In this document: piece after piece, positions 3,779 to 7,450 of the stretch
Layout: each line of letters begins with the position of its first letter
Numbering within the stretch: the stretch's first letter is position 1
Source of the DNA: Deltaproteobacteria bacterium
GTDB lineage: Bacteria; Desulfobacterota; GWC2-55-46; JADFVP01
DNA length: 53,127 nucleotides
Reading direction: 5' to 3'
NCBI GenBank assembly: GCA_024275045.1
Contig: JAJRZX010000153.1
Location: 1 to 53,127, forward strand
The notes under the pieces: model-generated
Seen by the model: the letters and a program-made list of their open reading frames with translations, nothing else
What the model was told of the DNA's origin: nothing
The model's database searches: none
Program-made: the position numbers and the translations under genes

Positions 3779-4429
3779 ATGATAAAGGGTTTTTTACATA
3801 TTCTTTTCTTTTTTACGACTCTTACGGCCATTGGTGTTACGGCCGCTGAGAGGCCCATGATGCCCGCCCCTGTTGACAGGCCTGCAGAGCGTTACGAGGA
3901 GCAAAAGGGCTCTACCATCAAGCGGGATAAATGGGGTGTAATGGACCCCACGCCTTCTGTCATACCGCTTGAGTATCTGCCCACTGACAGGTACGGTTTT
4001 GTGGACTGGGCCAGGGCCATGAGAGAAGGCAAGATAACCCCTAAAGACTCTCTTCTGGGCGGCCCTCCGCCGTCGCCGCCGTCTTTTAATAAAGACGTGC
4101 TCATTAAGTCCAAGTTAAAATTCATGCCCGATGTTGTCTTTCCCCATTCAGCACACAACGCGTGGTTTAATTGCGCCCCATGTCACCCGAAGATGTTCAA
4201 GAAAAAGGCCGGTGCCTCGAAGATCTCCATGCTTGGCATCTGGGGGGGGCAATTCTGCGGCAGATGCCACGACAAAGTGGCCTTTCCCATACGCAACTGT
4301 TTCAAGTGCCACTCCGTAAAAAGCGTAGACCAGAGAAGGCATATGAGAACCAGGAGCATACAGGAGTACAGGCTTAGAGAAGAAAAAAGCCAGCCCTCTT
4401 TACAAAGACCTTTTTCAGGGGTAAAATAA
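3779..4429 (+). CDS. Periplasmic triheme c7-type cytochrome
   Basis: The 216-residue protein starts with a signal peptide (hydrophobic residues 4-21, TAA before E24), so it should be exported. It has three CXXCH haem-binding motifs: CAPCH (132-136), CGRCH (160-164) and CFKCH (174-178). H123 and H126 in FPHSAH are likely distal ligands. This is the pattern of the c(7)-type triheme domain used in periplasmic or extracellular electron transfer. A proline-rich stretch of about 100 residues precedes the haem domain and resembles nothing I recognise. The gene sits behind a dispersed repeat that supplies its ribosome-binding site. It lies 47 nt ahead of the LuxR pair on the same strand, so it may share their transcript. 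The electron donor and acceptor cannot be told from the sequence. Confidence 0.85.
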   Translation: MIKGFLHILFFFTTLTAIGVTAAERPMMPAPVDRPAERYEEQKGSTIKRDKWGVMDPTPSVIPLEYLPTDRYGFVDWARAMREGKITPKDSLLGGPPPSPPSFNKDVLIKSKLKFMPDVVFPHSAHNAWFNCAPCHPKMFKKKAGASKISMLGIWGGQFCGRCHDKVAFPIRNCFKCHSVKSVDQRRHMRTRSIQEYRLREEKSQPSLQRPFSGVK

Positions 4430-4476: not shown

Positions 4477-5067
4477 ATGACGAACACAATAACCGGTTTT
4501 CCCAAAAAAGAACTTATCTCCATTCTTGAGCTCATAGACGACCTCAGTAAATGCGTAACTCATACAGAGGCGGCTGGTCTACTCATGAGGGTAAAAGACC
4601 TCCTGAACGCGGATTGCGCTGTATGCGGCACGGGTATTATTGATGCCAAGGGCGCTATAACCATTAACGACATCCTTGAATCAGGGTATCCCAATGAGTG
4701 GCTTAACCTTTACTTCAAGGAAGGTTTATACAGGCACGACCCCATAATCAGGCATCACATGAAGTTTTCCGAGCCCGAGCTCTGGTCCAACATACGGCAA
4801 AGTATTACCGATGAGAAGGCCCGTGCGGTTACGGAGTGGGCAGGCGAGTTTGGTCTTAAGTACGGTATCTCCTCAAGTCTATATATCCCTGCCACGGGGA
4901 TGTTCAGCCTTTTTTGTTTTGCTTCGGCTGAAGACGTATTCACCGAGCGCCACAAAGACCTTCTGGGGGCGCTTATACTGCACCTCAATATAGCCATCAC
5001 CGAGAGCTCAGTGAAGGACCCTTCGGGGAAAAAGCAACGAGCGGCAGAGAAACCATTGCTGCAGTAA
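4477..5067 (+). CDS. LuxR-family autoinducer-binding domain protein lacking the DNA-binding domain
   Basis: The 196-residue protein aligns along its length with the autoinducer-binding half of the next gene. It keeps the residues LuxR proteins use to hold acyl-homoserine lactone: W75, Y79, D88, P89, W103 and G130 (TraR W57, Y61, D70, P71, W85, G113). The GerE helix-turn-helix is absent. After NIAITESS comes a charged tail (KDPSGKKQRAAEKPLLQ) and a TAA. No remnant of an HTH follows in any frame before the next start 24 nt on, so the truncation looks settled. In known systems such proteins (for example TrlR) dimerise with the full regulator and block it. A decoy or ligand-buffering role is therefore an inference. 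It appears to be a tandem duplicate of the downstream gene. Confidence 0.85.
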   Translation: MTNTITGFPKKELISILELIDDLSKCVTHTEAAGLLMRVKDLLNADCAVCGTGIIDAKGAITINDILESGYPNEWLNLYFKEGLYRHDPIIRHHMKFSEPELWSNIRQSITDEKARAVTEWAGEFGLKYGISSSLYIPATGMFSLFCFASAEDVFTERHKDLLGALILHLNIAITESSVKDPSGKKQRAAEKPLLQ

Positions 5068-5091
5068 TCACACCCACACTTGGAGAGACAT

Positions 5092-5835
5092 ATGGGTTAC
5101 AGAGATTTTTCCAGAACTGAACTTAGCCTTATCCTTGAGATAATTCACTCAAGCCTTGCATGCAAGAACGACGGCGACCTCAAACGGCTGCTTACGATGA
5201 TAAAAGACCTTGTCTCCGCGGACCACGGCATATGCGGCATAGGGGCCATCAGGTCAGGGCAGCTCTCAAGCGTAAAAAAGATATTCAACCTTGATTATCC
5301 CGGCAAATGGATGGAGCTTTACGCCTCCAGGGAGCTATACAAGGTAGACCCCATTATACGCCACAAGATAAAGACAAAAGAGAGCTACTTCTGGAAAGAC
5401 GCTACTGAGCAGTTAACAAGCAAAGAGGACATCTCCTTCATGAATCTTGCCGGAGACTTTGGTCTGAGGTACGGTGTTGCCTCTGGTTTCATGGGCCAGT
5501 CCTCTGAGATGGCCAGCATATTCTCGTTCTCCGGAGGCGGAGACCGCTTCAGGGGGCACCACAAGAAGATACTGGACACTCTTGTGCCCCATATACACAT
5601 AGCCCTTGAGAGGATCTGCGCCATAGAGAGAAAAAAGGCCACGGGACTCTCCATAAGAGAGAGAGAGGTTCTTGCCTGGGTAAAGGAGGGTAAGACTAAC
5701 TGGGAGATATCAATGATACTTAGTATCAGCGAGAGGACGGTTAAGTTTCATGTTCAGAACATAGAGCACAAGCTAAACGCCGTTAACAAGGCCCATGCGA
5801 TAGCTCTTGCGATGGAACATGGTCTGGTTCAGTAG
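5092..5835 (+). CDS. luxR: LuxR-type quorum-sensing transcriptional regulator
   Basis: This is a cytoplasmic transcription factor expected to bind an acyl-homoserine lactone and lux-box DNA. From the ATG at 5092 (GGAGAG just upstream; a TTG at 5080 is less likely) it has 247 residues. An autoinducer domain (about 15-175) contains W73, Y77, D86, P87 and W101. A GerE helix-turn-helix (about 185-245) contains LSIREREVL, GKTNWEIS and SERTVKFHVQNIEHKL. The gene ends TAG TAA, two stops in frame. Its last 53 bp overlap the 3' end of the convergent luxI. Having a synthase and matching operators beside it, it is a cognate LuxR rather than a solo. Confidence 0.92.
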   Translation: MGYRDFSRTELSLILEIIHSSLACKNDGDLKRLLTMIKDLVSADHGICGIGAIRSGQLSSVKKIFNLDYPGKWMELYASRELYKVDPIIRHKIKTKESYFWKDATEQLTSKEDISFMNLAGDFGLRYGVASGFMGQSSEMASIFSFSGGGDRFRGHHKKILDTLVPHIHIALERICAIERKKATGLSIREREVLAWVKEGKTNWEISMILSISERTVKFHVQNIEHKLNAVNKAHAIALAMEHGLVQ

Positions 5836-6442
5836 TAACCCAGTAGTAAAACTCAGGGCTCTTGTATATGGCCACCTCCCTGAACTCATCAAGGTCCAGC
5901 CTGATGACAGCGGCCTGCACGCTATCTGGCATTACGATAAAGCTTCCCACCATCTTCACGGGGATACCGGTAAAACGCAGAAGACGATAATACCTCCTGT
6001 CAACTACCATGACAAGATGCCTTATCCCCATCTTAAGACTCCAGTGATATATACCCTTATATAAGAGGTTCGATACTCTCAGGATATAATCAGCCCTTCT
6101 CCCCTGCTTTCTCACGCATAAACGTGTTATCTCCGCCATGTCCCGGCTCTTTTTTATCCGCTCCTCACCTGTGGTAAGGCCGGCGAACTCCTTATCTATC
6201 ATAAAAGGTCTGGGTGAGGTAATAAAACGCGTGTAACCAATAAGCCTTTGCTCCATATCAAAGACCCCGAGACAGCTTGCAAAGCTGTCGTAGCGGTCCA
6301 CCTCTTTGCGGTCCTCTGATATAGGGGCCCACCGCAGCTCCTCGCTGAAGACCTCGTGTCTCAGGCGATAGCCCTGTTCCATCTCTTCGTAGGCAGAGAG
6401 GGTTTTTATCAAAAAGCCCTTCTCGCGCACCATCAGTTCCAT
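5783..6442 (-). CDS. luxI: Acyl-homoserine-lactone synthase (LuxI family)
   Basis: LuxI enzymes make acyl-homoserine lactone signals from S-adenosylmethionine and an acyl-carrier. The 219-residue protein has all eight invariant LuxI-family residues at the expected spacing: R28, F32, W38, D49, D52, R72, E104 and R107. They lie in YRLRHEVFSEELRW, EVDRYD, GYTRF and MAEITR. The acyl chain it uses cannot be read from the sequence. No ribosome-binding site precedes ATG 6442; an in-frame ATG at 6433 is an alternative. The 3' end overlaps the end of luxR by 53 bp in opposite orientation. Two lux-box-like sites lie upstream at 6476-6495 and 6534-6553, consistent with autoinduction. Confidence 0.92.
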   Translation of the reverse strand: MELMVREKGFLIKTLSAYEEMEQGYRLRHEVFSEELRWAPISEDRKEVDRYDSFASCLGVFDMEQRLIGYTRFITSPRPFMIDKEFAGLTTGEERIKKSRDMAEITRLCVRKQGRRADYILRVSNLLYKGIYHWSLKMGIRHLVMVVDRRYYRLLRFTGIPVKMVGSFIVMPDSVQAAVIRLDLDEFREVAIYKSPEFYYWVTTEPDHVPSQELSHGPC

Positions 6443-6475: not shown

Positions 6476-6495
6476 AACTGACAGCCGTGACAGTT
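6476..6495. promoter_or_regulatory. Candidate lux box A
   Basis: AACTGACAGCCGTGACAGTT is an imperfect 20-bp inverted repeat (14 of 20 positions symmetric) with the CTG-N10-CAG core of lux boxes. It lies 34 bp upstream of the luxI start. Confidence 0.5.
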
Positions 6496-6533: not shown

Positions 6534-6553
6534 TACTGTACAATCGTACAGGG
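6534..6553. promoter_or_regulatory. Lux box B, close to the Vibrio fischeri operator
   Basis: TACTGTACAATCGTACAGGG has the CTG-N10-CAG core. By eye it matches the V. fischeri lux box (ACCTGTAGGATCGTACAGGT) at 15 of 20 positions. The central 16 bp are symmetric at 14. It lies between the divergent luxI and radC genes and is the likely binding site of the LuxR protein at 5092-5835. Confidence 0.75.
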
Positions 6554-6574: not shown

Positions 6575-6580
6575 TATAAT
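6575..6580 (+). promoter_or_regulatory. -10 element of a lux-box promoter facing radC
   Basis: A perfect TATAAT lies 21 bp beyond lux box B on the plus strand, close to the 20-bp gap of classical LuxR-activated promoters in which the lux box stands in for the -35 element. Transcription would start near 6587 and read into radC. In the luxI direction TATAAT occurs at 6523-6518, only 10 bp from the box. Confidence 0.55.
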
Positions 6581-6721
6581 ATAGACTATTATAGTGATTG
6601 TCCGAGTTTTCACATAAAGTGTGGCGTAGTATTTCAAGAGACGCCGGTGCCGTGGGCGGAGGTAAATTTTCATTTGAACGCCCCACTAAACTCAGATTCC
6701 CTTATGGAAAAGGACAAAAAA

Positions 6722-7450
6722 ATGACAGTAACGGCCTCCCCCGGAGAGAATAAAGAGCATCTGAAAGCCCGCTTTTTAAAGACCGCGCTGCGGGGCTTTC
6801 AAAAGCACGAGACCATTGAGTTTGCCCTTACCTTTGCCATGCCGAGAAGGGATGTATGCCCTGTGGCAAAGAGGCTGATAAAGACCTTCAAGGGCCTGCG
6901 GGGGGTCTTTGACGCGCCGCGAGATGAGCTTAAGGCCGTAGAGGGCATGACAGACAACGCCGTTGTGCTTATAGGATTTCTAAAAGAGATGGCCTCTCTT
7001 TATCTACGCGAGAGGATAATGGGTAAAGACGTAATCAGCTCAAAGAAAGACGTGCTTGAGTACCTGAACCTCTCGCTCTCAGGCGAGAGGGTGGAAAAAT
7101 TCATCGCCCTATTCTTAAACTCAAGAAACGAGCTCCTTGCCATTGAGACCCTGCACGAGGGAACCATCAATCAGACCGTGGTATACCCTAGAAAGGTAAT
7201 AGAGCGGGCATTTAAGAATAACGCCCACTCCGTGATCTTTGTCCACAACCACCCCAGCGGAGACCCCAGCCCCTCTGCCGTAGACCGGCAGCTCACGGGC
7301 ATACTCCACCGCGCCGCTGTTGCCGTAGACCTTGTGGTTCAGGACCACATCATCATAGGCAGAGACTCGCATTTCAGCGGACGCGAGAGCGGATGGTTTA
7401 ACGGCGGACCAAGACCCATTGGAAGCCGCGTAATAGCAAATAAATTCTAA
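6722..7450 (+). CDS. radC: RadC-family JAB/MPN domain protein
   Basis: This is a RadC/DUF2466 protein, a family once linked to DNA repair whose true biochemical role is unsettled. From the ATG at 6722 (AAAAGGA 7 nt upstream) it has 242 residues. An N-terminal helix-hairpin-helix-like part contains MPRRDVCPVAKRLIKTF. The C-terminal JAMM metalloprotease-like domain contains HNHPSGDPSPSAVD (H175, H177, D188). In-frame starts at 6647 (GTG), 6674 (TTG with GGAGG upstream) and 6704 (ATG) would add up to 25 residues. Its upstream region carries lux box B with a well-spaced TATAAT, so it may be under quorum control. It ends 20 bp from the convergent kinase gene. Confidence 0.85.
   Translation: MTVTASPGENKEHLKARFLKTALRGFQKHETIEFALTFAMPRRDVCPVAKRLIKTFKGLRGVFDAPRDELKAVEGMTDNAVVLIGFLKEMASLYLRERIMGKDVISSKKDVLEYLNLSLSGERVEKFIALFLNSRNELLAIETLHEGTINQTVVYPRKVIERAFKNNAHSVIFVHNHPSGDPSPSAVDRQLTGILHRAAVAVDLVVQDHIIIGRDSHFSGRESGWFNGGPRPIGSRVIANKF

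Follow-up and report, generated by a model that had tools for sequence, protein, structure and literature searches.

Why does a locus that encodes a complete LuxR-LuxI pair also encode a second LuxR-type protein that has a ligand pocket and no DNA-binding domain? The question arises from the window, i.e., the whole stretch of 53,127 nucleotides that we analyzed, which is contig C133 in a genome of 2.28 Mb and 156 contigs. The gene at issue, R1 (4477..5067, + strand), encodes 196 amino acids and was studied using Pfam, an alignment of 21 relatives and AlphaFold2. Its sole Pfam match is Autoind_bind (PF03472, 2.8e-16, residues 68-170), and the GerE helix-turn-helix (HTH) that defines a LuxR-type transcription factor is absent from R1 according to Pfam. 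The pocket is complete (W75, Y79, D88, P89, W103 and G130), and these six residues correspond to the six positions that line the acyl-homoserine lactone (AHL) pocket of TraR, namely W57, Y61, D70, P71, W85 and G113 (PMC11655674). With both Autoind_bind and the six residues, R1 has the ligand domain of a LuxR-type AHL receptor. The AlphaFold2 model of R1 (pLDDT 87.5) consists of the whole ligand domain followed by a 12-residue disordered tail. This model has a CviR-type fold and CviR is the structure closest to it; a PDB sequence search with R1 also finds CviR closest. The R1 stop codon lies 24 nt before the R2 ATG, so there is no space for an HTH remnant between the two genes of the window, and none is present. 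Nor did we find a remnant in any of the three forward frames within the longer R1-R2 gaps of three relatives (L049, L054 and L051). The initial annotation had described a full autoinducer domain with all canonical pocket residues, no HTH and no HTH remnant before the next gene, and these analyses bear out each part of that description.

The next gene, R2 (5092..5835, + strand), encodes a full-length CviR-like LuxR protein of 247 amino acids. As had been proposed, it has both domains, Autoind_bind and the GerE HTH, according to Pfam. Its PDB match is to CviR (3qp6, 5.1e-35), and it keeps all six pocket residues. CviR of Chromobacterium violaceum is thus the closest PDB match to both proteins, but it has the HTH that R1 lacks. 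An in-frame TTG occurs at 5080, upstream of the R2 ATG. The luxI gene (5783..6442, - strand) has an intact frame of 219 amino acids and matches Autoind_synth (PF00765, 1.3e-20), the domain that identifies an AHL synthase. It is convergent to R2, and the 3′ ends of the two genes overlap by 53 nt. Therefore, the earlier description of the locus as decoy, receptor and synthase was right about the neighborhood, but not about a shared direction, since luxI is on the opposite strand. Across the whole genome, there is no Autoind_bind gene besides R1 and R2 and no LuxI gene besides this one. The overlap between the coding ends of R2 and luxI (5783-5835) is kept in most related loci, at 50-71 nt, and could cause antisense effects between receptor and synthase. 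The R1-R2-luxI cassette is bordered on the left by a multihaem cytochrome c7-like gene (3779..4429, + strand) and on the right by a radC-like gene (6707..7450, + strand), both recognized by synteny. In the stretch from 5065 to 5091, R1 and R2 share a frame that is open except for one TAA. A readthrough fusion of R1 and R2 was considered and rejected, as the two genes are in frame in 7 of 23 loci, which is the level expected by chance.

We searched 63 genomes of the class and found Autoind_bind in 35 of them. In 22 of the 63, R2 is directly preceded by an HTH-less R1. More precisely, there are 23 open reading frames with Autoind_bind and no HTH: 22 are complete or nearly so (this count includes the R1 of L059, which runs off its contig), and one is a fragment near a contig edge (L051). 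All lie directly upstream of a full-length receptor and in the same direction. The spacing between R1 and R2 is -8 to 55 nt in most loci; two loci have wider gaps (113 and 129 nt), and the start given for R2 falls within R1 in L036 and L045. In 20 of the 22 R1 loci, luxI is on the same contig and convergent to R2; in L049, the contig stops after R2 and luxI was found on another contig of that genome, and in L047 neither R2 nor luxI is functional in sequence. The neighborhood of R1, R2 and luxI, which was searched for among relatives, is thus conserved. The named relatives' records are mostly metagenome-assembled genomes called “Deltaproteobacteria bacterium”, several of them from groundwater. 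Two cassettes contain a third LuxR gene with an HTH, besides R1 and R2 (L034, 2214-2939; L040, 5549-6280).

A full-length gene in relatives at the position of R1 would have suggested that the copy in the window is simply broken. We looked for such genes, but all 22 are HTH-less and form one clade. R1 is therefore not a broken gene, and a frameshift artefact is rejected on the same grounds. All 21 aligned R1 proteins have the same six pocket residues, at a mean column identity of 48%. In one relative (L047, 6184-7510), R1 is open, but the other two genes are disrupted, R2 by a nonsense codon and a frameshift, luxI by a frameshift; this locus is either a decaying cassette or partly the product of assembly errors.

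All R1 genes most likely go back to a single early loss of the HTH. When 58 ligand domains are placed in a maximum-likelihood tree, one branch (100/94) splits the 22 R1 proteins from the 36 R2 proteins. Two very divergent solos (L068 and L052) were left out of this tree. An earlier tree that included them required three HTH changes, but repeated independent losses were rejected, as the three changes were due only to these two sequences and one split remains without both. When the tree is rooted with CviR, the R1 clade (99/95) is nested within the full-length receptors (94/98), and it is because of this nesting that we regard the HTH as having been lost once. R1 was thus derived from a full LuxR protein by loss of the HTH, as is characteristic of antagonists of the TrlR and CerN type. 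At the edge between domain and linker, the R2-invariant P166 and the near-invariant H169, Q170 and R174 are released in R1, whereas H, A and L of that same edge helix are retained. Judging by the alignment, this is the pattern expected if R1 had lost just those contacts that face the absent HTH.

R1 is under purifying selection, with somewhat relaxed constraint. In close pairs, dN/dS is 0.18-0.37 for R1 and 0.08-0.22 for the ligand domain of R2, and the R1 value is the higher one in each close pair that could be computed for both. The longest branch among the R1 proteins is that of the window's own R1, at about 1.6-1.75 changes per site, and its pocket is intact. The long branch and the elevated dN/dS would fit a functionless, decaying duplicate. 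However, the 22 open frames that trace to a single ancient event, a dN/dS far lower than 1 and an invariant pocket largely refute this explanation, which we consider very improbable.

The distribution of the cassette ties R1 to luxI. The window shares the gene order RNase J, cytochrome, R1, R2, luxI, radC and kinase with most of its relatives in the family labeled f6. The cytochrome gene directly adjoins radC in G018 and in G001 and G003, which belong to the same family as the window, and because of this adjacency we conclude that the cassette can be present or absent as a unit. Partial loci also occur. In four genomes belonging to two lineages of the tree (L050, L061 and L063; L066), R2 is in place, but R1 and the luxI of the locus are both missing, and no strong luxI match was found elsewhere in these genomes. 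Weak LuxI-family matches in the genomes lacking luxI (E-values of 1e-7 to 1e-4) were set aside, as they are probably other acyltransferases. Relatives of the families f11 and f5 have R2 and luxI without R1. Since loci with R2 only and with R2 and luxI only both exist, R1 is an accessory to R2, and its occurrence is associated with production of the signal. In five genomes (L042, L045, L046, L056 and L059), R1 comes from one clade and the R2-luxI pair from another, i.e., a divergent pair lies beside an R1 of the resident type. Pairwise distances of R2 and LuxI are correlated with r 0.87, compared to 0.49 for R1 and R2 and 0.53 for R1 and LuxI.

The hybrid histidine kinase with a PAS domain is a conserved neighbor of the cassette. 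R1 could therefore sense AHL on behalf of a partner with a non-transcriptional role, such as this kinase or another protein, and the open R1 of L047, where R2 and luxI are disabled, would fit such a role. By contrast, the kinase and radC remain in genomes that have lost R1 (L050 and L066), and we regard this role as quite improbable.

Two lux-box-like dyads lie between luxI and radC. The proximal dyad, ACTGACAGCCGTGACAGT (6477..6494, unstranded), has the form ACTGN10CAGT and is present in nearly all relatives with luxI. Read on the luxI strand, it precedes the luxI start by about 52 nt, both here and in the majority of other loci (range 46-69 nt). The distal dyad, ACTGTACAATCGTACAGG (6535..6552, unstranded), is more symmetrical, resembles CCTGTACN4GTACAGG and lies about 110-129 nt from the luxI start. 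Since both dyads resemble lux boxes and R2 resembles CviR, whose box served as the reference, we infer that R2 binds them. Across the loci, the only lux-box-like dyad upstream of R1 or R2 is a single poor match, in L056. L066 and the other three genomes that keep R2 without R1 and luxI (L050, L061 and L063) retain the distal dyad, and in the latter three the proximal dyad is gone along with luxI and R1. Just past the distal dyad, a consensus scan found a possible -10 element, TATAAT (6575..6580, + strand), of a promoter directed toward radC, and relatives have a TATAAT-like hexamer at a similar position. Because the distal dyad is kept when luxI and the proximal dyad are lost, and because the TATAAT follows it, its function is probably on the radC side. 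This suggests that the radC-like gene is a quorum-sensing target. Elsewhere in the genome, perfect matches to CTGTNCN4GNACAG number only two, no more than with a reversed-pattern control; accordingly, we do not claim a genome-wide lux-box regulon. Judging by the translations of adjacent genes, one of the two sites has a MerR-type regulator as its neighbor, and the other is next to arginine-pathway-like genes.

The unequal quality of the two dyads upstream of luxI, together with the adjacency of R1 and R2, could indicate that R1 is a positive partner, which either stabilizes R2 or helps it to fold, or else forms a mixed dimer able to work on weaker sites or half sites, the degenerate proximal dyad being one example. 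However, the relatives without luxI keep R2 without R1, and those in f11 and f5 have R2, luxI and both dyads without R1. Since R2 occurs without R1 in both settings, R1 is not an obligate partner, and a positive role seems unlikely to us.

HTH-less LuxR proteins that antagonize a full receptor are known as isolated cases. TrlR, from octopine-type strains of Agrobacterium tumefaciens, resembles R1 in being a LuxR-type protein that lacks the DNA-binding domain and accompanies a full LuxR. It forms inactive mixed dimers with TraR and so blocks TraR (PMC13043044). TrlR is 88% identical to TraR (PMC11655674) and is thus a recent copy, whereas the clade of R1 proteins is ancient and its divergence from R2 is clear, and R1, unlike TrlR, is fixed beside R2 and luxI throughout an order. 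In Cereibacter sphaeroides, CerN is encoded in the cluster cerN-cerM-cerR-cerI and is like R1 in lacking the HTH, in having the six pocket residues and in its LuxR-LuxI neighborhood. It counteracts the full LuxR protein CerM in an AHL-dependent manner and is 31% identical to it (PMC11655674). However, CerM binds DNA without AHL, carries W57F and is distinct from CerR (PMC11655674), while the R1 locus has only one full receptor, which keeps all six residues. The authors reported no conserved synteny of cerN in the relatives that they compared (PMC11655674). The third precedent, from a survey of LuxR solos, is a set of proteins near such solos that, like R1, have an autoinducer-binding domain (ABD) only and lie beside LuxR genes. 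The passages of that survey on ABD-only proteins suggest sequestration of the ligand or interaction with LuxR, and call for further study (PMC4338825).

With moderate confidence, we lean toward R1 being an AHL-binding, dominant-negative brake on R2, based on the precedents of TrlR and CerN, the joint loss of R1 and luxI, and a tethered structural model. The initial annotation had suggested a built-in brake or ligand buffer, and the present results support that reading in part. R1 would bind the AHL made by the neighboring LuxI, as its pocket implies, and its ligand domain, which still folds like that of CviR, would pair with R2 in mixed dimers. With a single HTH in place of two, such a dimer would hold poorly to palindromic lux boxes. 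R1 would thereby raise the AHL level needed before R2 turns on luxI and the radC side. As the genes are adjacent, in one direction and without a lux box of their own, the R1:R2 ratio should be roughly fixed, and would set a threshold on the positive-feedback loop of luxI. We infer both that R1 and R2 are co-expressed and that the effect of R1 is negative. The tethered model of the two ligand domains, built by reading the TAA between the same-frame R1 and R2 as Q, has a pTM of 0.78 and a disordered linker, with the provisos that it has no negative control and that AlphaFold2 saw LuxR homodimers; it points to a defined mutual arrangement of the R1 and R2 ligand domains. A tightly co-evolving R1-R2 interface is disfavored by the lower R1-R2 distance correlation and by the five genomes with a divergent R2-luxI pair beside a resident R1. 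We also count against the brake that R1 of L047 is intact despite its disabled R2 and luxI.

The strongest rival to the brake is an AHL sink, in which an R1 homodimer binds AHL and stoichiometrically lowers the free signal in the cell, leaving R2 untouched. The joint absence of R1 and luxI fits this explanation equally well. The invariant pocket and the persistence of R1 beside diverged R2-luxI pairs also agree with it, the looser co-divergence of R1 and R2 favors it a little, and sequestration of ligand is what the survey of LuxR solos proposed for ABD-only proteins. On the other hand, a sink alone leaves the strict adjacency of R1 and R2 unexplained, and the C-terminal helix of R1 is fairly conserved, although homodimers could use the same helix. 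We consider the sink possible, if rather unlikely.

We found no earlier report of the R1-R2-luxI cassette in the open-access papers that we searched. Beyond TrlR and CerN, what was known comprises unexplained survey entries, and the main text of the survey mentions no Deltaproteobacteria, while its passages on ABD-only proteins give no lineage-wide history (PMC4338825). What the present data add is the single and ancient origin of R1, its retention across the order, and its absence together with that of luxI. Tentatively, the locus may represent an ancestral, order-wide two-receptor design, in which a DNA-binding receptor is joined by an HTH-less co-receptor that is kept while the cell produces a signal of its own and discarded once production ends, outlives replacement of R2 and luxI, and acts as a general threshold-setter for any AHL circuit at the locus. 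A lineage with a once-arisen, selected HTH-less receptor that is absent where luxI is absent makes “decoy receptors” a testable circuit element rather than a curiosity. Its natural variants, i.e., loci with R1, without R1, with R2 as a solo and with a swapped R2-luxI pair, are ready comparisons for effects on the quorum-sensing threshold.
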